The position numbers and the translations under genes were made by a program. From IMG/VR virus record IMGVR_UViG_3300028666_000013, positions 1 to 40,812 of that record: a DNA stretch of 40,812 nucleotides. One strand, given 5' to 3'. The DNA comes from a virus. Numbering within the stretch: position 1 is the first letter of the stretch; each line of letters starts with the position of its first letter. This document shows, piece by piece, positions 6,267 to 40,812 of this stretch. The notes under the pieces were generated by a model. It saw nothing but the letters and a program-made list of their open reading frames with translations, had not been told where the DNA came from and ran no database searches.

Positions 6267-6515
6267 TCAAGCTGGGGACCCCTCGCGCGTACGCGAGGAA
6301 AAAACGATTCGGCTTTCGACCGCGGACTCCAGCAGCCGGGCAAACCGCTTGCGGTCGCGTCGCAGGGCACGCTCCCGGTTGCGGCGGCCGATCCGGGCCT
6401 CCACTTTCGTCTTGAGCAGCGGCTGACCATGGCTGGACAGCGGCTTGCGGCCGGCGGAACACGCCTCGGCCAGGAGCTTGTAGAACGGGCGGTTAGTCGT
6501 GGGCATCAGGTCCAC
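6267..6515 (-). CDS. Small basic protein, unknown
   Basis: An 82-residue, strongly basic protein beginning MDLMPTTNRPFYKLL; Met4 (6506) is an equally possible start. It overlaps the end of the serine recombinase by 23 bp on the same strand. The helical, arginine-rich centre (RIGRRNRERALRRDRKRFARLL) suggests nucleic-acid binding. No family is recognised and the gene could be shorter than drawn. Confidence 0.4.
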   Translation of the reverse strand: MDLMPTTNRPFYKLLAEACSAGRKPLSSHGQPLLKTKVEARIGRRNRERALRRDRKRFARLLESAVESRIVFSSRTREGSPA

Positions 6516-7248
6516 TCCATACTTGGTGTCGACTCAGGAGATCGTGGACTGTCGAACGAGACCATCGCCCCCCCTCTTTCCTGGGCTTCAGGCCTCGGCG
6601 GTCCAGCTCGGCGCAGATCGCCCGCAAGGTCCGCCCCTGGTCCGCCAGCTCCCTCATCAAGGCCAGCACCTCGAGCTCGGCGGGATTGGGCACGACGGCG
6701 ATGGGCCGGCCGTCCTTGGATCGCCTTGGATCGCCCGGATCGACCGTGGTGCCATAGGCAGCGTGCCCGCAGACCTCGCCATTCGATCGTTTGGCCGCGA
6801 ACGCGTCATTGGTCCGCTCGACGATCGTTTCCCGCTCCCACTGCGCCAGCATGATGATCAGGTTCATCACCATGCGGCCGTTGGCGGTCCGGGTGTCGAT
6901 CGAGTCGGACACGGAGAGCAACTGGGCCCTCGGGCGATCGCCGCCGAAATGGGACTCCACCAGGCGGCCCAGGTCCACCAGCGATCGGGTCAACCGGTCG
7001 AGCTTGGCGACGACCAGGCCGCCGGCTTTCCCGGCGTCGATCAGTTTGAAGATCGAATTCAGCCCGGGCCGGTCGAGCGTCTTGGCCGAGGCGCCAGGGT
7101 CCTCGATCGTGGTGAGCAGCTCCAGCTCATGGAGCCGGCAGAATTGCTCGATCTTGTCGCGCTGGGCCCTCAGGCTCACCCCGTCGCGGGCTTGTTCGGC
7201 GGTGCTGACTCTCGCATACCCGAAGACTTTAAGGGGTTCGTGTGCCAT
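6493..7248 (-). CDS. Serine recombinase (resolvase/invertase type)
   Basis: A 251-residue site-specific recombinase. The resolvase domain begins GYARVSTAEQ, with the expected nucleophile Ser15 next to Arg13, followed by GLVVAKLDRLTRSLVDLG and a long E-helix region (MVMNLIIMLAQWERETIVERT). The C-terminal part (RTLRAICAELDRRGLKPR, then WSRSTVHDLLSR) is a short recombinase-type DNA-binding domain. It is larger than a minimal resolvase and much smaller than large serine integrases. In a genome that also has ParAB and a tyrosine integrase, resolving multimers of a circular plasmid form is the most attractive role; inversion or integration are alternatives. No crossover site was found by eye. Confidence 0.9.
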   Translation of the reverse strand: MAHEPLKVFGYARVSTAEQARDGVSLRAQRDKIEQFCRLHELELLTTIEDPGASAKTLDRPGLNSIFKLIDAGKAGGLVVAKLDRLTRSLVDLGRLVESHFGGDRPRAQLLSVSDSIDTRTANGRMVMNLIIMLAQWERETIVERTNDAFAAKRSNGEVCGHAAYGTTVDPGDPRRSKDGRPIAVVPNPAELEVLALMRELADQGRTLRAICAELDRRGLKPRKEGGRWSRSTVHDLLSRHQVWSGPDAHD

Positions 7249-7314: not shown

Positions 7315-7962
7315 TCATGAATCGATGCTGTCGGATGTCATAACTTTCAGGGGCTTGCCCTTGTCCGGCTCCGGTCGGGGCCGGACAGGCCCCGAGCCCG
7401 GGGCATGGAGCCACCCCTGGTACGCCTCGGACCAGAGGACCGCGGCGGGGTCGATCGGCGCCCCGGCCGGGAAGTCCTCCCGAGCGGCGACCTGGCCGAT
7501 CGCCACCGAGGTCAATCCGGGGAAGAGCCGGTGATATACCTCGACGTCGGCCCTGGCGGGAAGCTCGTCGGGGTAGAGCCGCCGGCCGGATTGCTCGGGG
7601 TGGAAGTCGGCCAGGTCGGGCCGTTTGTCACCCGACTCCGACTCCGACTCCCAATCCGACACGGAATGAAAGGCCAGGTAGGCCCGGCATTCTTCGGGGG
7701 TGTCGAGCCGGATCGGGAATCGCCCCGTCAGCTCGCCGACGGAGACGCCCAGTGCCCGCGCGAGCCGGGCCAGGGTCGAGTCGCGGAGCAGCCCCGACCG
7801 GCCTCGTTCGACGTTGAACACGCAGGCCAGCGAAAGCCCGGACGCCCGGGCCAGGTCGCGCTGGCTCCAGCCCCGCTCCCGACGGAGGATCTTGAGGCGT
7901 GGCCCCACCACGAGGCAATGCGTCTCTTTCGGTTCACTTTCGGATCTTATTCCGGTCTCCAT
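7315..7962 (-). CDS. XRE-family repressor-like regulator
   Basis: A 215-residue regulator. Residues about 20-78 form a lambda-repressor-type helix-turn-helix (GPRLKILRRERGWSQRDLAR, then ASGLSLACVFNVERGRSG and LARLARALGVSVGEL). The remaining 130 residues show no recognisable repressor cleavage domain, only an acidic serine-rich linker (SDWESESESGDK) and an unknown domain. It is transcribed away from a HEXXH peptidase gene (8325), with an AT-rich palindrome (8002-8018) between them. This is the best candidate for the lysogeny repressor of the element. Confidence 0.8.
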   Translation of the reverse strand: METGIRSESEPKETHCLVVGPRLKILRRERGWSQRDLARASGLSLACVFNVERGRSGLLRDSTLARLARALGVSVGELTGRFPIRLDTPEECRAYLAFHSVSDWESESESGDKRPDLADFHPEQSGRRLYPDELPARADVEVYHRLFPGLTSVAIGQVAAREDFPAGAPIDPAAVLWSEAYQGWLHAPGSGPVRPRPEPDKGKPLKVMTSDSIDS

Positions 7963-8762: not shown

Positions 8763-9047
8763 ATGATCGAGGACCTGGAATACGCCCTCCACTGCATGAT
8801 GTACGCGGTGGGAATCCTCATCATGGTGGTCGCCTGCCTGGCGATCGCGATCGTGATCGGAGTCATGATCGGTTATGCGAGATACCTCTGGCAGGCGAGG
8901 GAAGTGCTCGCCAGGGTCGGGAGGCGCCGCGCGGCCAGGGTCCGGGCTCGTCACTTCGGCTTGGAAGATGATGACGGCTCTGCACCCCTTTATCTTAGCC
9001 GCCCTGGCTCGCCTTCCCGTCTTTCTTCCTCAGCAGGAGGAACATGA
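8763..9047 (+). CDS. Small membrane protein
   Basis: A 94-residue protein with a long hydrophobic segment (about residues 8-42, including GILIMVVACLAIAIVIGVMIGYA) that could form one or two membrane helices, then a basic region (RVGRRRAARVRAR) and a polar tail. It follows the HEXXH peptidase by 39 bp on the same strand. Its 3' end overlaps the convergent membrane gene by 53 bp, and the last 20 residues look like read-through of that overlap. Its size and topology would allow a holin-like role, but nothing specific supports it. The ribosome site is weak. Confidence 0.5.
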   Translation: MIEDLEYALHCMMYAVGILIMVVACLAIAIVIGVMIGYARYLWQAREVLARVGRRRAARVRARHFGLEDDDGSAPLYLSRPGSPSRLSSSAGGT

Positions 9048-9555
9048 GGTTCATCTGCCGGCATGTGCACGACCAGGCCCAGACCCCGAGGAAGGCAAGG
9101 ACGGGTCCCACGAGGGAGAGATAGGTCGCTCCCTGATACTGGGCCGTGCGGATGACCATCACGATCAGGCATGCCGCGATGAAGCGGAGCTGGGTCCAGA
9201 ATGCCGCCGCCTGATACTCGATCAGGGTCGGATAGTAACCCTCATTCTTGAGGTACGCGATGATCGGCTTGTCGATCAGCGCCAGCAAGACCGATTGGGC
9301 CACGGCCATCAAGCCCGCGAGCATCGCCGTGGCGCTCACGGCCGTCGGCAGCACATCCACAGCGAGCTTGTCGGCCCCCTTGGCGGGGAACCAGGCCCAG
9401 GCGACGAGGGCCGCCGCCAGACCATACAGGAGAGGGCGAACCCTCCCGTCGAGGTACTTGCCCAGGAGGGCGGCCGCCGAACTCCGGAGCCGAGGGTACC
9501 ACCCGAGCGGAGGGAGCGGGGACAAGTTTGGCGACGGGGCCTCATCGGTCATCAT
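8995..9555 (-). CDS. Four-helix membrane protein, RexB-like partner
   Basis: A 186-residue integral membrane protein. Four hydrophobic segments are visible: about residues 42-58 (LLYGLAAALVAWAWF), 71-95 (ending AQSVLLALI), 118-137 (FIAACLIVMVI), and 143-172 (SLVGPVLAFLGVWAWS). The tail is basic. The start (ATG at 9555 or 9552) lies inside the end of the preceding gene (overlap 14 or 11 bp), so the two are translated together. A RexA-like soluble protein followed by a four-helix membrane protein matches the layout of the lambda rexA-rexB superinfection-exclusion pair. I see layout and topology, not clear residue-level similarity to RexB. Confidence 0.65.
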   Translation of the reverse strand: MMTDEAPSPNLSPLPPLGWYPRLRSSAAALLGKYLDGRVRPLLYGLAAALVAWAWFPAKGADKLAVDVLPTAVSATAMLAGLMAVAQSVLLALIDKPIIAYLKNEGYYPTLIEYQAAAFWTQLRFIAACLIVMVIRTAQYQGATYLSLVGPVLAFLGVWAWSCTCRQMNLMFLLLRKKDGKASQGG

Positions 9556-10420
9556 TCTCGCGGGCTTCAGGGTCAACCTCCTGCAAAAAGCCGGCAAGCT
9601 GCCTCTGGCAATGGTCCCGATCCCATTCTCTCCCGGACGCCTTCAGTTCAACAAGATACTCGACCCGCGCGCCCAGCATGTCGAGAATGACGGCCTTGCT
9701 CCCCTCCTTCTCGACGCCGCTCACCTTCAGCGAGGTCACGTCCGTGCTCCCCATCATGAACAGCCGCTTGACGTAGGACTTGACCTTGTCGGCCATGAGC
9801 TCGCCCTTCCCATTCCCGATCGAGAGTTGCATCCCGATCGTCGCGGCGTCGACGTCCTCCATCGCCTCCAGGGCCCTCTCGATCGGGAGCCCGGCGTTTC
9901 CCAACGCCGCCCTGGCCTGCCTGGCAGGCCTGCGGATCTTGAATTCCAGCGACCGGAAGACGCTCGTCTTCTCCAGCCGTTCGATCATGTCCCTCCTGAG
10001 GAGCGGCTCGACCTCGACGTGATACGGGAATCTCAGCTCGTCAAGGAAGTGCGAAATGACCTGGGCCCTCGGCCCGCTCGCCGAACTCTGGACCACCGCG
10101 ACCTGCCGGGACGGATCATAGGCGAAGCAGATCGGCTCCCCGAGGTGGGTATCCTCCGCGAGCGGCAGCCGCTTGACTCCATCGCCGTCGATCACGGACG
10201 GGAGTTCCGTCGAGCGTAGCTTGAAGATCGTCGCCGTGAACGCCGGCTTGCCCCCGGCCCGGCGATTGTGCGCATCATCGATCGCGTAATCGCCGTCGTT
10301 CGATTTGAAGCGGATCAACTTCTTCCGGTTCGCGAACGCGCGAAGAAGCCCATCGATGTCCTCGGCGCAGCCTCCCTCGGGGATGATCGAATAAGCATGA
10401 ACTTTGCAATTCTTCGCCAT
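9542..10420 (-). CDS. RexA-like / DUF6731-like soluble protein
   Basis: A 292-residue cytoplasmic protein read from Met at 10418-10420 (MAKNCKVHAYSI), which has a GGGAG ribosome site 11 bases upstream; an ATG at 10459 would add 13 residues but overlaps the previous gene. The first half resembles the RexA and DUF6731 fold. It has a start like xHxYSIIP, a helix with DIDGLLRAF, an FKLRSTELPS strand, HLGEPICFAYDPSRQVAVVQ, then SGPRAQVISHFLDEL and VEVEPLLRRD. Lambda RexA, from memory, has GPTTSDLTDFL followed by VQIEPLMRG at the same place. The C-terminal half is helical and charged. With the coupled membrane gene it forms a probable phage-exclusion pair. Confidence 0.65.
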   Translation of the reverse strand: MAKNCKVHAYSIIPEGGCAEDIDGLLRAFANRKKLIRFKSNDGDYAIDDAHNRRAGGKPAFTATIFKLRSTELPSVIDGDGVKRLPLAEDTHLGEPICFAYDPSRQVAVVQSSASGPRAQVISHFLDELRFPYHVEVEPLLRRDMIERLEKTSVFRSLEFKIRRPARQARAALGNAGLPIERALEAMEDVDAATIGMQLSIGNGKGELMADKVKSYVKRLFMMGSTDVTSLKVSGVEKEGSKAVILDMLGARVEYLVELKASGREWDRDHCQRQLAGFLQEVDPEARENDDR

Positions 10421-11038: not shown

Positions 11039-11929
11039 TTATGGATTGGCTGCCTTCTTGCGATCCAGATCCCGCCGGATTTCTTCGGCCTTCTCATGCA
11101 CCTGTTCAGCATTCAGGCCTTCGAGCGGCTCGAATAACACCGTCTTCTTCGGCGACTCGGCTTTCTTACCGCTGAATGCGGATTTCATCATCTCGGGCAT
11201 TGCTTTCAGCATGGTAACCGTGATGCAGTCGGCCTGAAATTGCTTCTTTCCCTCTTCATCCAAGGAATCGTTGATCGCCTTGATCGAGGCATCCAGCACG
11301 GCGTCGGATGACGTGTCAATTTGAGGCGCCTCAATCTTCGCTTTCGCTTGAGCCTCTGCCTGTCTCGCCTTGACCTGCGCCTCCTTGGCCGCCTTCCTAG
11401 CGGCGTCGACGGCCACGCCGCCAACCACCAAATTCATGAACAAGAGAACCGCAAATGCAAAGGCATTGAGCGAGACGCCAGCGATTGGCCACCCCACACC
11501 ACTCTTCTTGCCGGTGAGGGCGACAAGAACACCGACAATCGCGAGCAATCCACCGACGAAAATCAGGGGCAACGCCAGCAGATTGACAAGCGGTATCCAG
11601 CAAATCAAGGCCGCCAGTATCCCAAAGATCACCCCCGCGACACCCAGCCCATTAACCCCCTTGGACTGGGGCGGATTATTCATGACCACCTGGACATTGG
11701 CGGTGGCCGGGACCGGGGCGAATGACACCGTTTCGATGCGTGCTGGCGTGACGGGAAGAGGGGAAGGGGCGGGTGCCGACGGGGGAGAGGGCCTCATCTC
11801 GGGCGACGGGGAAGGCGTCGGCACCCTCGTCTCGGCCCCGCATTGATTGCATTTTCCCTTCTTGCCAGCCAACTCGTCCTTCACCGCGAATTGCTTACCG
11901 CACGACTTGCAAGCGAACTGGATCGGCAT
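11039..11929 (-). CDS. Zinc-ribbon membrane protein of planctomycete type
   Basis: A 296-residue protein read from ATG at 11927-11929. The N-terminus is a zinc ribbon (FACKSCGKQF, then GKKGKCNQCG; two CxxC pairs within residues 7-33), a module common at the start of planctomycete proteins. A proline/serine-rich linker (about 37-70) follows, then three hydrophobic segments (about 95-165 and 172-200), then an Ala/Lys/Gln-rich coiled-coil-like stretch and a helical C-terminal domain (SDAVLDASIKAINDSLDEEG). It looks host-derived: a membrane-anchored protein carried as an accessory gene. Function unknown. It is preceded by a small ribbon-helix-helix gene on the same strand, 10 bp away. Confidence 0.7.
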   Translation of the reverse strand: MPIQFACKSCGKQFAVKDELAGKKGKCNQCGAETRVPTPSPSPEMRPSPPSAPAPSPLPVTPARIETVSFAPVPATANVQVVMNNPPQSKGVNGLGVAGVIFGILAALICWIPLVNLLALPLIFVGGLLAIVGVLVALTGKKSGVGWPIAGVSLNAFAFAVLLFMNLVVGGVAVDAARKAAKEAQVKARQAEAQAKAKIEAPQIDTSSDAVLDASIKAINDSLDEEGKKQFQADCITVTMLKAMPEMMKSAFSGKKAESPKKTVLFEPLEGLNAEQVHEKAEEIRRDLDRKKAANP

Positions 11930-11939
11930 CGTCAGTGCC

Positions 11940-12161
11940 TCATCGTTTGGGCGGGGGCTCAAATCCGATGATATCGGCATATTTGGCAAGAGCACGATCG
12001 ATCACATCGGCCTTCCCACATCTTTCCTTCTCGGAAAGTCGTTCAAGCCAATCGAGATAATCGCGAGACATCCTAACGCCGTAAACGGCGGGAGGAAGTT
12101 CACCGGGCTTGGAAGCCAGCTTCTTCTTCCGTCCCATGTCCTTCGCCATGCCTGCTGCCAT
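11940..12161 (-). CDS. Ribbon-helix-helix (CopG-like) regulator
   Basis: A 73-residue protein starting at ATG 12159-12161, with a GGGAG ribosome site nine bases upstream; three further in-frame ATGs lie close by. After a basic N-terminus (MGRKKKLASKPG), the segment VYGVRMSRDYLDWLERLSEK followed by KADVIDRALAKYADIIGF matches the strand-helix-helix order of small CopG/Arc-type repressors. A large inverted repeat (12192-12227) lies just upstream and a related half-site lies near the divergent gene, so it probably represses itself and perhaps gene 12428. It could also be an antitoxin-like protein, but no toxin is visible. Confidence 0.7.
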   Translation of the reverse strand: MAAGMAKDMGRKKKLASKPGELPPAVYGVRMSRDYLDWLERLSEKERCGKADVIDRALAKYADIIGFEPPPKR

Positions 12162-12191
12162 CGCTTCGAACTCCCAGGGTATAGGGAGCCA

Positions 12192-12227
12192 CATTGTCCT
12201 ACATAACGTATCGCCTGTAGGACAATG
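12192..12227. promoter_or_regulatory. Inverted-repeat operator upstream of the ribbon-helix-helix gene
   Basis: Perfect 12-bp arms, CATTGTCCTACA (12192-12203) and TGTAGGACAATG (12216-12227), 12-bp spacer, 31 bp before the start of the regulator. A third related copy, TGTAGCACAAT (12311-12321), has one mismatch. The layout suits cooperative binding of a dimeric repressor. Confidence 0.65.
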
Positions 12228-12310
12228 CAGCAAACATTTCCAGATCCGATAGTCAAATCTTACCCTCCCCTTCAAATAATTCCAGTGGCCTATTGATTTT
12301 TATTGTTTTC

Positions 12311-18950: not shown

Positions 18951-19109
18951 GTCAAGGTTTCGCCAGCTTTCCCAATTTGAACCGTGGCGAACATTGCGCC
19001 GATTTCATCTTTGGATGGGTCGGGTGTGTCCTGGCGCTGGCATACTGGCTTGTCGGGCGACGTGTCCCGATGGTTTCCCAGTCACCGCCCGTGGACCAGG
19101 AGCAAGCCC

Positions 19110-20042
19110 ATGCCGGCCATCCCTTACCCGCGATTCGTCGCCGAGGTCGAGGAGCTTTATCTGAGCGAGACGTCGCGAGGCACCTATCGCAAGATGCGCC
19201 AGACTCTCCGCGAGTTCGGCCAGGTCGAGGGCCTACGCAAGACCTCGGACCTGGACGACCTGGCCATCGTGCGATGGAAACGCGCCCATCCGGGCCGGAG
19301 TTGCTGGACCGTCAGGTCGCTCCTGATCAACTTCCGGCGGGCCTGCAACCTGGCGATCGCCAAGGGTTATCTCCGGCGATCCCCGTTCGGCATCCGGTCG
19401 CTGAACGACTGGGCTCAGCTCGAAGATCCGGGTTGCGTCCGGCACCATTCGCTGGAGGCGATCGGGGCCGTCCTGGGTCACCTGCGGGCGCTCTCGGCCA
19501 CGTCATGGGAGGATCATCGGCTCCTGACGCTGGCCTCGACGATCGCCTTCACGGGGGTCCGGGCCGGCGAGGCGTTCCATGCGAAGGTCGAGGACTTCGA
19601 CCTGGTGAACGGCGTGTTCACCATCTCGTCACGGCGGAAGCTGAAGACCCGGGCCTCGGCGCAGCCGGTCCCGATCCCGGCCGCCCTGGGCGAGCTGCTC
19701 TCCGGTTGGTTTGCCGTGGTCCATTGCGAATGGGCGTTCCCGGGCGTGCGGCGGATTGGCCCCTGGACCGGCGGGTTGCCCGGCCGCAAGCCGCTCGACC
19801 GGCTCAAGGCTCGGGCCAAGGAGCTGGGAATCGAGGGCTTCACCTTTCAAAGCCTGCGCCATTCCTGGGCGACTCACGCCGAAGGGGCGTGGGGCCTGAC
19901 CGATCCGCAGATCCAGAGGGCCTTGCGGCACACCACGATCCGCACCAGCAAGGCCCATTATCGCCATGCCGACCTGGCCAATCTCCGGGAGATCGGCGGC
20001 AAGGTCTCGATCCCCGTGCATCCCGGCGCCGATCCTCGCTGA
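19110..20042 (+). CDS. int: Tyrosine recombinase (integrase)
   Basis: A 310-residue site-specific recombinase. ATG at 19110 was chosen for its AGGAG site; an earlier in-frame ATG (18984) lies within the attP-side region. The N-terminal core-binding domain (about 1-105) contains SRGTYRKMRQTLREFG. The catalytic domain has Arg151 (TGVRAGE), Lys177 or 179 (RRKLK), Arg250 (QSLRHS, with Gln247 where His is usual), His274 (ALRHTT) and the nucleophile Tyr284 (AHYRH). With the tRNA-like site just upstream it should insert the element into a host tRNA-Arg gene, or act on multimers. The Gln at box II is a known tolerated variant but worth noting. Confidence 0.92.
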   Translation: MPAIPYPRFVAEVEELYLSETSRGTYRKMRQTLREFGQVEGLRKTSDLDDLAIVRWKRAHPGRSCWTVRSLLINFRRACNLAIAKGYLRRSPFGIRSLNDWAQLEDPGCVRHHSLEAIGAVLGHLRALSATSWEDHRLLTLASTIAFTGVRAGEAFHAKVEDFDLVNGVFTISSRRKLKTRASAQPVPIPAALGELLSGWFAVVHCEWAFPGVRRIGPWTGGLPGRKPLDRLKARAKELGIEGFTFQSLRHSWATHAEGAWGLTDPQIQRALRHTTIRTSKAHYRHADLANLREIGGKVSIPVHPGADPR

Positions 20043-21289: not shown

Positions 21290-21534
21290 CCCGACCTCGC
21301 GTCAAGCTCGACCTCCTGTGGCTGACCGTCGGCACGCGGTTCACCCTGGACGATGTCCCCGGCGCCGAGGTCTACACGGTCGCCGAGGCCGGCCGCAAGG
21401 CGCTCGACGGCTCGACCTTGCTGCCTCCGCTGTTCCGCGACGGGGCCGGCCTGATCGTCAAGGCGGCCGCCGTGAAGTCTCGCAATGGCGGGTCCTATTT
21501 CGCCTTCGGGCTGGAGGAGGAGCAGGTCCCATGA
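21286..21534 (+). CDS. Unknown small protein upstream of parA
   Basis: An 82-residue beta-rich protein from ATG 21286 (MTRPRVKLDLLWLTVGTRFT). It contains VYTVAEAGRKAL and SYFAFGLEEEQ. The ParA start ATG overlaps its last codons. It may be a small regulator of the partition operon, on position only. Confidence 0.5.
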   Translation: MTRPRVKLDLLWLTVGTRFTLDDVPGAEVYTVAEAGRKALDGSTLLPPLFRDGAGLIVKAAAVKSRNGGSYFAFGLEEEQVP

Positions 21535-22337
21535 AGACGATCGCCTTCCTGAATCAGAAGGGCGGCGTCGGCAAGACGTCGACCTGCCACCACCTGGCCG
21601 GCGCGTTCGCCGGCCGGGGGCTCCGGGTGCTGCTGGTGGACAACGACCCGCAGAGCTCGCTCACCCAGGGGCTGTTCGGGCCCGACGAGGCCAGGGACCT
21701 GGACCCTGCCTCGACGATCGCCGCCGTCCACCAGGGGGGCGACCCCCACCCGGGCGCGTTGATCCGGCCGACGTCGATCGCCGGCGTCGACCTGGTGCCG
21801 GGCTCGAGGGCCTGCGCCCGCTGGAACGTGCCGTGTCCCTCCGAGGTCGATCCCGATCGCCAGTTCGCCCTCGACGGGTTCCTGGGATCGATCGAGGGTT
21901 ACGACCTGGCGCTGGTCGATTGCCCGCCGAATCTCCACCTGGCCTCGTGGACGGCGCTGGTGGCGGCCGACCACCTCATCGTGCCGCTGCAACCGGAGGA
22001 CTATGCCAGCCAGGGGCTGGCCGACGTGCTGGAGTCGGTCGCCCTGGTGGTCGAGGGCCCGAACCCCCGGCTGACGGTGCTGGGCTACCTGCTCACGCGC
22101 GTCGTGGCCCGCAAGACCGTGCACCGGTTCTACGAGGATCGGCTCAGGCGCCTCTATGGCCGGGAGGTCTTCGAGACGCGCGTGCCCGACGCGGTGGCCT
22201 ATGTCGAGGCGATCATGGCACGGAAGCCGGTCCAACACTACGCGCCGCGATCGGCGGCGGCCGTGGCGATGCGTGCCCTCTCCGTCGAGGTCCTTCGGCA
22301 GGCCGGGATCTCCTCACCTATGATGGAGGTCCTCTGA
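21531..22337 (+). CDS. parA: ParA partition ATPase
   Basis: A 268-residue Walker-type partition ATPase (Soj/ParA). The deviant Walker A box is KGGVGKT (residues 10-16; Lys10 and Lys15), followed by LLVDNDPQSSLT and the Walker B stretch DLALVDCPPN. There is no N-terminal helix-turn-helix, so it resembles the short chromosomal-type ParA that does not repress its own operon. It would form a dynamic gradient that positions ParB-bound plasmid copies. It is followed by parB after three bases. Its presence argues that the phage genome is kept as a plasmid, at least part of the time. Confidence 0.95.
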   Translation: MKTIAFLNQKGGVGKTSTCHHLAGAFAGRGLRVLLVDNDPQSSLTQGLFGPDEARDLDPASTIAAVHQGGDPHPGALIRPTSIAGVDLVPGSRACARWNVPCPSEVDPDRQFALDGFLGSIEGYDLALVDCPPNLHLASWTALVAADHLIVPLQPEDYASQGLADVLESVALVVEGPNPRLTVLGYLLTRVVARKTVHRFYEDRLRRLYGREVFETRVPDAVAYVEAIMARKPVQHYAPRSAAAVAMRALSVEVLRQAGISSPMMEVL

Positions 22338-22340
22338 GCC

Positions 22341-23885
22341 ATGGCCTCGAAACTCCAGTCGATGCGCAACAAGTACCAGGCGAACGTCGACCAGTCGATG
22401 GGCTCGACCCGCTTGCAGGCCAAGGCCGGCAAGCCCGATGCCCCCGCCGCCACGACCACGACCACGACCACGGTCCCGTCGATCGCTCGACATGCCGGCC
22501 TTGGCAGGCTGGCGGACGCGGCGGTCATCCCTCTCGCTCGGCTCTCGCCCGACCCGGACCAGCCCCGCCAGGAGTTCGACGCCGAGGCCATCGATAGGCT
22601 GGCCGTGAGCCTGAAGGAGTATGGCCAGCTCATGCCGATCCGGGTCCGCTATGCCGAGGACATCGATCGGTACATCATCGTCTGCGGCGAGCGGCGGTAC
22701 CGGGCGGCCCGGCGAGCCGGGCTGCTCAACCTGGCGGCGATCGTCTACGACCGGCCGCTGTCGGCCGAGGAGATCCTCACCGTCCAGCTCATCGAGAATT
22801 GCTGCCGGGAGGACTTGTCCCCGCTGGATCAGGCCAAGGCGATCCGGGCCCTGATCGAGCGCCGGGGGCTGACGCAGGCCCAGGTGGGCAAGGAGCTGGG
22901 GGTCACCCAGGGGACGGTGAGCAAGTCTCTGGCCCTGCTCGAGCTCCCCCCTCCGGTCCAGGCCCGGGTGATCGCGGGCGAGCTCTCCCCCTCGGTCGCC
23001 CGCGAGCTGCTTCGGGTCGAGGACCCGAAGCAGCTCGAATCAGGCGTGGAGATGGCCGTCCACTATCGCTGGAATCAGTCACAGGCGTCGACCTGGGCGA
23101 GGGCCAGGGGGGCCGTGATCGACGTCGAGTTCGAGGATGCACCCGCCTCGGATTATTCCGCACGGAATAATCCCGGGCCCTCGGAGGAGCGGGCATGCCG
23201 GATTTGCGGGTGCACCGATGCGGATTGCTCGCAATGCATCGATAAGACGGGCGAGCCCTGCTCCTGGGTCGGCCAGAATCTGTGCTCTCGATGCGCCGAC
23301 GAGATGGAGGAAGCCGAGGACGCGCCGGCCCAAGACCTGAATCGAATTTATTCCGCACGGAATAATCCGGGTGAAAATGGAGAGGTTGGGACGGTCGCAC
23401 CGAGTGGAAATTATTCCGCACGGAATAATCCCGACCCGGTCATTGGGCCGCCAACCGCCAAATTCCTGGTCCGAAATGCCAAGGGTGCCTCGCTTTATTG
23501 CCTGACGGCGCCATCGCTCGACGTCGCCGAGACATGGGCGAGGAATAACCACCCGGCCGATTGGGGAGGCTCCGTCGGCCCGATCACCGAGGCCGAGTGG
23601 GCGGACCTGCCGAGCTGGATCACGACCAGGCCGGCCTCCGGTCCGCCTTCGCCCATTCACGGCAACGCCGAGACTCCGGGCGTGCCCGCGCTGATCGCTC
23701 CCACCAAGGTGATCCCACCGCCGTCGGAATCCACCGGCAGGAAACCCGAGCAGCTCGTCTTCGGTTTCGTGTCCGACTCGGGCATCGAGATCGTGGCCAA
23801 CTGGGCGCCTGGCAAGAGCCGGGACGAGATCCTCCAGGCGGTCTGGGAGTTCAAGGTCAGGATGGAAAGGAAGTACCTCCTATGA
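22341..23885 (+). CDS. parB: ParB partition protein with in-frame centromere-like sites and a cysteine cluster
   Basis: A 514-residue ParB. The N-terminal CTP-binding domain (about 61-165) shows LSPDPDQPRQEF, GERRYRAA (115-122) and ENCCREDLSPLDQA (151-164). The helix-turn-helix is at 176-197 (LTQAQVGKELGVTQGTVSK). The C-terminal 250 residues are unusual. They hold three YSARNNP heptapeptides (Tyr272, Tyr337, Tyr358) encoded by a 20-bp palindrome, and a cysteine cluster (286-318; CRICGC, CSQC, PCSW, LCSRC) that probably binds zinc. The end (LVFGFVSDSG) recalls a neighbouring gene. It is longer than standard ParB by about 200 residues. It is coupled to parA and to the following gene (ATGA). Confidence 0.93.
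   Translation: MASKLQSMRNKYQANVDQSMGSTRLQAKAGKPDAPAATTTTTTTVPSIARHAGLGRLADAAVIPLARLSPDPDQPRQEFDAEAIDRLAVSLKEYGQLMPIRVRYAEDIDRYIIVCGERRYRAARRAGLLNLAAIVYDRPLSAEEILTVQLIENCCREDLSPLDQAKAIRALIERRGLTQAQVGKELGVTQGTVSKSLALLELPPPVQARVIAGELSPSVARELLRVEDPKQLESGVEMAVHYRWNQSQASTWARARGAVIDVEFEDAPASDYSARNNPGPSEERACRICGCTDADCSQCIDKTGEPCSWVGQNLCSRCADEMEEAEDAPAQDLNRIYSARNNPGENGEVGTVAPSGNYSARNNPDPVIGPPTAKFLVRNAKGASLYCLTAPSLDVAETWARNNHPADWGGSVGPITEAEWADLPSWITTRPASGPPSPIHGNAETPGVPALIAPTKVIPPPSESTGRKPEQLVFGFVSDSGIEIVANWAPGKSRDEILQAVWEFKVRMERKYLL
23152..23171. promoter_or_regulatory. parS-like palindrome 1 (inside parB)
   Basis: ATTATTCCG-CA-CGGAATAAT; with flanking GG/CC the arms reach 11 bp. It encodes Tyr-Ser-Ala-Arg-Asn-Asn at residues 272-277. 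Confidence 0.7.
23347..23366. promoter_or_regulatory. parS-like palindrome 2 (inside parB)
   Basis: TTTATTCCG-CA-CGGAATAAT, one mismatch from the consensus at the first base, leaving 8-bp arms. It is 195 bp from copy 1 and encodes the same peptide in the same frame (Tyr337). Confidence 0.65.
23410..23429. promoter_or_regulatory. parS-like palindrome 3 (inside parB)
   Basis: Exact 20-bp consensus, 63 bp (six helical turns) after copy 2, again in frame (Tyr358). The close pair could be bound side by side on one DNA face. Confidence 0.7.
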
Positions 23886-40377: not shown

Positions 40378-40812
40378 TCATTCGTCGAGGTTCATGGTCC
40401 GGATCAGGGTCGCCCCGATCCGGTCGATGAGCCCCAGGTCCTCCGCGTCCGCGTCCTCTTCCTCGGCAGGCTCGTCATCGCCGCCGAGCAGCGCCTTCAT
40501 GCATTTCATCGAGAGCGACTTGCACTCGTCGTAGGCGTCGGAGATCCGCTTCATCCGGTCCGATGCGAGTGATTTTTCATCGCCAAGGTGACCCCAGGTC
40601 GCCTCGTGGAGACGCTCGTGGAGTGTCCTCACGGCGGCCATCGCGGCGGCGGGTTCTGCCGTCGGGCCGAGGTGGGCCGACTTCGACGCCTCGTCGACCA
40701 GCGACTTGAGGGCCACGGCCTGCGTGCGGGGCTCGGCGGGACTGGGCGTGATCGAGGCGTCCAGGCCCAGCGGCCAGGCGAGGATCTTGTGCGAGCCGTT
40801 GTCCTGCTTTTC
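40378..40812 (-). CDS. Prohead protease, C-terminal part (joins 1-514)
   Basis: The continuation of the protease starting at 514. Positions 40686-40812 repeat bases 1-127, so residues 130-273 are encoded here. The end is helical (AAMAAVRTLHERLHEATWGH; ACKSL-like DECKSLSMKCMKALL) and acidic (DDEPAEEEDADAEDLGL). Such tails are common in these proteases and may be trimmed. It stops 80 bp before the capsid gene start. Confidence 0.85.
   Translation of the reverse strand, partial: EKQDNGSHKILAWPLGLDASITPSPAEPRTQAVALKSLVDEASKSAHLGPTAEPAAAMAAVRTLHERLHEATWGHLGDEKSLASDRMKRISDAYDECKSLSMKCMKALLGGDDEPAEEEDADAEDLGLIDRIGATLIRTMNLDE
40686..40812. repeat. Terminal direct repeat, right copy
   Basis: Exact copy of bases 1-127; see the left copy. 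One copy should be dropped when the circle is closed. Confidence 0.9.

Follow-up and report, generated by a model that had tools for sequence, protein, structure and literature searches.

The locus described here raises the question whether two overlapping genes of a virus encode a phage-exclusion pair of the type of lambda RexA and RexB. Although phage exclusion has been studied for decades, there is still debate on what triggers RexA and on how RexB acts on the membrane. The window, i.e. the whole stretch of 40,812 nucleotides that was analyzed, is the IMG/VR record IMGVR_UViG_3300028666_000013. A first-pass annotation had proposed a distant RexAB-type system in a planctomycete-type phage, in which a soluble protein of 292 residues is translationally coupled to a protein with four membrane helices.

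Gene pair and genomic context

The features of the pair and of its surroundings are the following.

8995..9555, minus strand: membrane protein in the RexB position, 186 aa, predicted four helices (partner-family profile, hydropathy)
9542..10420, minus strand: RexA-like soluble protein, 292 aa, DUF6731 (PF20505) (Pfam, PHROG, AlphaFold2 model, family profile)
9542..9555, minus strand: 14-bp overlap of both frames, AATGATGACCGATGA, the stop of the first lying inside the start region of the second
6493..7248, minus strand: serine recombinase near the pair, 251 aa (PF00239, E 1.4e-32; integrase PHROG 95, E 3.3e-54)
7315..7962, minus strand: HTH regulator, 215 aa (HTH_31, E 9e-12; HTH_3, E 6e-11; phage regulator and repressor PHROGs)
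18984-20042: tyrosine integrase
21318-23885: ParA/ParB

The soluble and the membrane ORF are both present as annotated, and the two segments quoted for the former, SGPRAQVISHFLDEL and VEVEPLLRRD, occur in the 292-aa ORF at 9542-10420(-). The codon-position G+C is high at the third position (GC3 0.82 and 0.86 in the soluble and the membrane ORF) versus the second (GC2 0.41 and 0.49), so that both ORFs are read as genes. ORF length was discarded as coding evidence, as shuffled copies of the region yielded up to 380 aa at the same G+C. The 14-bp overlap fits the proposed translational coupling. Hydropathy analysis found no membrane helix in the 292-aa protein. In the 186-aa protein, three helices are clear (76-94, 117-135, 146-164), and a weaker stretch around residues 40-58 corresponds to helix 1 in the alignment with the relatives. 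The membrane protein thus probably has four helices; three of those claimed are clear by hydropathy, and the fourth is a candidate only. Promoter and terminator scans stayed at chance level, with no recognizable promoter upstream of the pair. Neither protein was matched by the PADLOC 2.0.0 models.

A 127-bp direct terminal repeat (1-127 and 40686-40812) indicates that the record is probably complete, circular and about 40.7 kb in size. Besides ParA/ParB, the tyrosine integrase and the serine recombinase, the proteins it encodes include a terminase, a portal protein, a major head protein and a tape-measure protein. The nearest relatives of ParA are plasmid proteins of Planctomyces sp. SH-PL62, Singulisphaera and Isosphaeraceae EP7 (51-58% identity). 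This affinity, together with the presence of ParA/ParB, suggests a temperate planctomycete phage-plasmid (plasmid-prophage) as the likely carrier, and the planctomycete-type phage of the first-pass annotation is supported by the proximity of ParA to Isosphaeraceae plasmids. The pair shares with the HTH regulator and the serine recombinase a regulatory region in which most genes point leftward. The HTH regulator (7315-7962), a candidate immunity repressor by its sequence matches, lies outside the pair proper, on the same strand and about 1 kb downstream, with two rightward ORFs of the opposite strand in between.

Two further leftward ORFs were observed upstream of the RexA-like gene. A 318-aa protein (11039-11995, minus strand) combines an N-terminal zinc-ribbon-like part and central membrane helices with a C-terminal DUF6694 domain (E 3.7e-7). 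A 111-aa ORF (11940-12275, minus strand) overlaps the next gene and faces the rightward early region; weak similarity to Arc-like and phage repressors makes it a candidate regulator.

Relation of the soluble protein to lambda RexA

The 292-aa protein scores 62.3 bits with DUF6731 (PF20505), for which the curated cut-off is 27 (E 6.8e-17), the match covering positions 68-268 of the 295 in the profile; it also matches PHROG 10865 (E 3e-12). Both families are without assigned function. Judged by these matches, the protein is a genuine DUF6731 member. DUF6731 is its sole Pfam match; the RexA family proper, PF15969, is matched by lambda RexA and by a relative from a Salmonella phage, and not by the 292-aa protein. 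As lone query, it recovered no relative in peptide-pattern scans of IMG/VR and GTDB, in tblastn searches of phages and plasmids, or among the PDB sequences.

A BLASTP comparison with lambda RexA was weak (E 0.027, one short segment). The family profile reached further. An hhalign comparison of the DUF6731 family with lambda RexA and its Salmonella phage relative yielded an E value of 7.4e-9, valid for a single comparison, and a probability of 95.8. The alignment spans 249 columns in the same order throughout and is nearly full length. Lambda RexA alone scored 47 against an 11-member DUF6731 alignment, and the two-member RexA profile scored 65 against the final one, while the best of the decoys, 400 unrelated ORFs and 200 reversed ones, scored 25. 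With seven DUF6731 sequences, before relatives were added, the result was marginal (E 2e-4). Of the 225 residues aligned between the 292-aa protein and lambda RexA, 31 are identical (about 14%). VEVEPLLRRD is aligned to lambda VQIEPLMRGT directly where the RexA domains are hinged; the landmarks common to both proteins include EPLLRR/EPLMRG at this hinge, SGPR/FGPT and LAED/LADD. The RexA/DUF6731-like order of segments noticed initially is hence borne out by the Pfam match and by the collinearity of the family profile with RexA. In the copy of the lambda record used (J02459.1, 35825-37940; L083), the coding sequences of rexB, rexA and cI are all named 'rexb'.

Arginine 219 and lysine 221 are required for DNA binding of lambda RexA, which is not strictly needed for exclusion (PMC11077077). 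They are aligned to the non-basic residues S234 and V236 of the 292-aa protein. The relatives from Javan1 and AP45 are basic at both positions.

An AlphaFold2 model was calculated template-free from 12 sequences, none of them RexA (pLDDT 77.6, pTM 0.75). In a Foldseek search of the whole PDB, lambda RexA occupied ranks 1 and 2 (8TWQ, E 5.4e-8, prob 1.00; second entry, E 1.2e-6), followed by E. coli RdgC (2OWL, rank 3, E 1.2e-4, prob 0.99), yeast Iml3 and CENP-N proteins. RdgC, Iml3 and the Iml3 partner Chl4 are published structural relatives of RexA (PMC11077077). The TM-score of the model against RexA is low, about 0.35, and the RexA match consequently rests on local structure and on sequence. 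The probable cause is a differing domain placement, since RexA was crystallized in a closed state and DNA has been proposed to open it. An earlier model from five sequences (pLDDT 50) was too poor for use, yet RexA was already top-ranked. According to model and profiles, the 292-aa protein is a member of the RexA superfamily with a predicted two-domain fold of the RexA/RdgC type. The first-pass annotation had suggested profile and structure comparisons and had named an unrelated fold as the outcome that would speak against a RexA relation; the opposite was obtained, with lambda RexA first in the PDB, its known fold kin next and profile homology over nearly the full length.

Distribution of the DUF6731 family

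DUF6731 was detected in none of 392 genomes taken from the phylum of a Planctomycetota MAG and in 4 of 398 taken from the phylum of Clostridium methylpentosum. More relatives are encoded by Pseudomonas phage AUS531phi, Aeribacillus AP45, Listeria and Streptococcus phages and an Acetoanaerobium phage, others by E. coli phages and one plasmid record. The family was not found in 12 records picked via terminase or tail-protein relatives, several of which are fragments.

Several individual copies deserve mention. Pairs of a RexA-like and a four-helix protein below the Pfam cut-off occur in genome G833 (L104, 975-2376) and in the Acetoanaerobium phage (L107, 2501-4076), indicating that the family extends beyond the current Pfam model of DUF6731. 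Methanocaldococcus jannaschii, included as control genome, has a match under the cut-off, possibly an archaeal relative. The DUF6731 gene of genome G716 (L089, L092) is interrupted by a 408-aa ORF, which by eye looks like a TnpB of the IS200/IS605 type, and its downstream membrane partner is intact. In genome G570 (L090/L093), the gene is broken into two frames. The DUF6731 gene of Escherichia phage vB_EcoS-733R5 (L105, 1983-3371) carries the label 'portal (connector) protein', a misannotation.

Membrane partner and gene order

Fifteen other loci with a DUF6731 or related protein, from phages of six genera and from Bacillota genomes, were compared with the window. All 15 encode a protein of 118-200 aa with three or four helices directly downstream, at a distance of -11 to +46 bp; the value for the window is -14. 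These partners form one family, each being recovered by a profile built from the others. The 186-aa protein matched the leave-one-out profile of the partners from the other loci over 62 columns (E 3.7e-5; the reversed control gave 0.89). Its closest partner is the AUS531phi membrane protein, with 27% identity over the alignment. The best-kept stretch is a helix that leads into a short loop: ALIDKPIIAYLKNEGY in the window, SLIDRPFIKNLNKTGH in AUS531phi and SVSDKPRIARLNENGY in G833. A similar-looking stretch in lambda RexB, GSRTRRLAKIREYGYM, had a profile score no better than decoys. The 186-aa protein did not match Pfam PF15968 (RexB), and a BLASTP comparison with RexB was empty. A homology of the partner family to RexB was not accepted, since the E values of 0.015-0.06 were within the decoy range.

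Among 5426 complete E. coli genomes, 11 contain the pair intact, with both genes in all 11. In AUS531phi (MN585195), the order is cro-like gene, cI-like gene, DUF6731 gene and membrane gene, which is the lambda order. Across the loci positions vary: pairs are found next to cI, next to Q or before the terminase gene, in many phage backgrounds. In Escherichia phage vB_EcoS-733R5, the pair separates Q from the lysis genes and is encoded on the strand opposite to them.

Proposed function and alternative explanations

The window pair is quite probably a distant RexAB-type superinfection-exclusion (abortive-infection) pair of a temperate planctomycete phage, the latter probably a plasmid-prophage. 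Supporting observations are the DUF6731 match, the model with RexA as first hit, the profile alignment with its common landmarks, the partner in 15 of 15 loci, the lambda gene order in AUS531phi, the intact E. coli pairs (11 of 11) and the proven defence by the similarly built P. putida, CarolAnn and Sbash pairs. On the other side stand the TM-score of 0.35, RexB homology at decoy level, the non-basic equivalents of R219 and K221, the distance to the candidate repressor and the lack of a recognizable promoter. The initial claim of a distant RexAB-type system holds for the RexA fold and profile and for the membrane partner in every locus examined; homology of this partner to RexB was not detected, and the repressor is not adjacent.

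Exclusion activity of the window pair would follow by analogy. Phage exclusion is established for the pairs of lambda (RexAB), P. putida (RexABpp), CarolAnn and Sbash; in the current view, their soluble protein activates the membrane protein, which damages the membrane and stops growth (PMC12894663, PMC6426606, PMC6426596). A mechanism modeled on these experimentally studied relatives (lambda RexAB, RexABpp, CarolAnn gp44/gp43, Sbash gp30/gp31) would begin with a soluble protein, probably a dimer, that senses an infection product, either DNA or a phage protein. A conformational change would then enable it to activate the membrane protein, which would permeabilize the inner membrane and halt growth. 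The second phage would fail, while the kin of the resident element would survive. The CarolAnn pair is triggered via a phage protein (PMC6426606). Considering this and the replacement of R219 and K221 by S234 and V236, the trigger of the window pair may differ from that of lambda RexA. A tentative extension, which we regard as somewhat doubtful, is that DUF6731 proteins with four-helix partners form an unrecognized RexAB-type branch in prophages of planctomycetes, Bacillota, Pseudomonas and E. coli, where some sensors, including that of the window, would lack the lambda-type DNA-contact residues and be triggered by a phage protein instead of phage DNA.

Alternatively, the RexA-like protein could act mainly on the lysis-lysogeny switch or the replication of its own phage, with the membrane protein as restraint or anchor and exclusion as a secondary effect. 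In lambda, RexA is able to shift the bistable switch towards lysis without RexB, and its DNA binding is uncorrelated with exclusion (PMC11077077). In the Butters system, the soluble partner suffices for exclusion and is dampened by the membrane protein (PMC7542560); RdgC, whose fold the window protein shares, is moreover a modulator of recombination. Such a role is nevertheless unlikely in view of the non-basic equivalents of R219 and K221 and of the linkage of both genes at all loci, in many backgrounds and positions, which suits portable cargo better than a phage-specific switch component. It is very improbable that the pair belongs to lysis, with a holin-like membrane protein and the soluble protein as regulator. 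The partner is a small multi-helix phage membrane protein, and the E. coli pair is located between the Q antiterminator and the lysis genes; its strand, however, is opposite to theirs, holin and lysozyme are already annotated there, and the AUS531phi pair occupies a lysogenic position after cI. To our knowledge, RexA is not recognized as a lysis factor. There is similarly little to commend an inactive or repurposed relic, or a toxin-antitoxin-like maintenance module of the phage-plasmid. The absence of the family from the 12 terminase and tail-relative records, its rarity in planctomycete genomes (0/392) and the low identity to lambda RexA are in line with a relic, whereas both frames are intact with a strong codon bias and a preserved overlap. 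Where decay has occurred it is visible, as in the split and insertion-broken copies of G570 and G716.

The exclusion reading makes the window pair a new, very divergent RexAB-type pair. The literature searched did not mention DUF6731 or PF20505 and apparently contains no report of the link between DUF6731 and RexA, of the conserved partner family or of the occurrence in planctomycetes. No defence assay on any DUF6731 protein was identified. A broader family of such pairs has already been anticipated (PMC6426596). Tying DUF6731, a family of 'function unknown', to RexA together with a conserved membrane partner makes many more examples available and extends RexAB-type systems to planctomycete elements. 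The intact pairs in sequenced E. coli prophages are open to direct testing in laboratory strains.

Comparison with known systems

RdgC (2OWL) resembles the soluble protein in fold (rank 3), but is a chromosomal recombination modulator without membrane partner. CarolAnn gp44/gp43 and Sbash gp30/gp31, proven defences in actinobacteriophages, likewise combine a soluble with a four-helix membrane protein (PMC6426606, PMC6426596). A serine integrase is located near the CarolAnn pair, comparable to the recombinase in the window. CarolAnn gp44 differs in having no Pfam match; its comparison with DUF6731 was not significant (E 0.17), and one family for both is not demonstrable from this one sequence.

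RexABpp of Pseudomonas putida (PP_5643/PP_5644), published in 2026, is a proven defence. According to the published description, it consists of a soluble RexA-fold and a four-helix membrane protein, as does the window pair; it is prophage-borne with a CI-like repressor a few genes off, and was recognized only through HHpred and structure (PMC12894663). The window pair is known from sequence and model.

Lambda RexA/RexB (PF15969/PF15968) differs in the identity of about 14%, the missing Pfam RexA match of the window protein, the R219 and K221 residues not kept in the window, and a RexB without detectable homology to the 186-aa protein. The lambda genes follow cI and do not overlap, whereas the window genes overlap and do not directly follow the candidate repressor. 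Shared are the RexA fold as best PDB match, the near-complete profile homology, the EPLxR hinge motif and the four-helix membrane protein encoded immediately downstream. The AUS531phi pair belongs to the same Pfam family and has the closest membrane partner; its uncharacterized DUF6731 protein is about 17-21% identical to the 292-aa protein and, unlike that of the window, it is placed after cI as in lambda.
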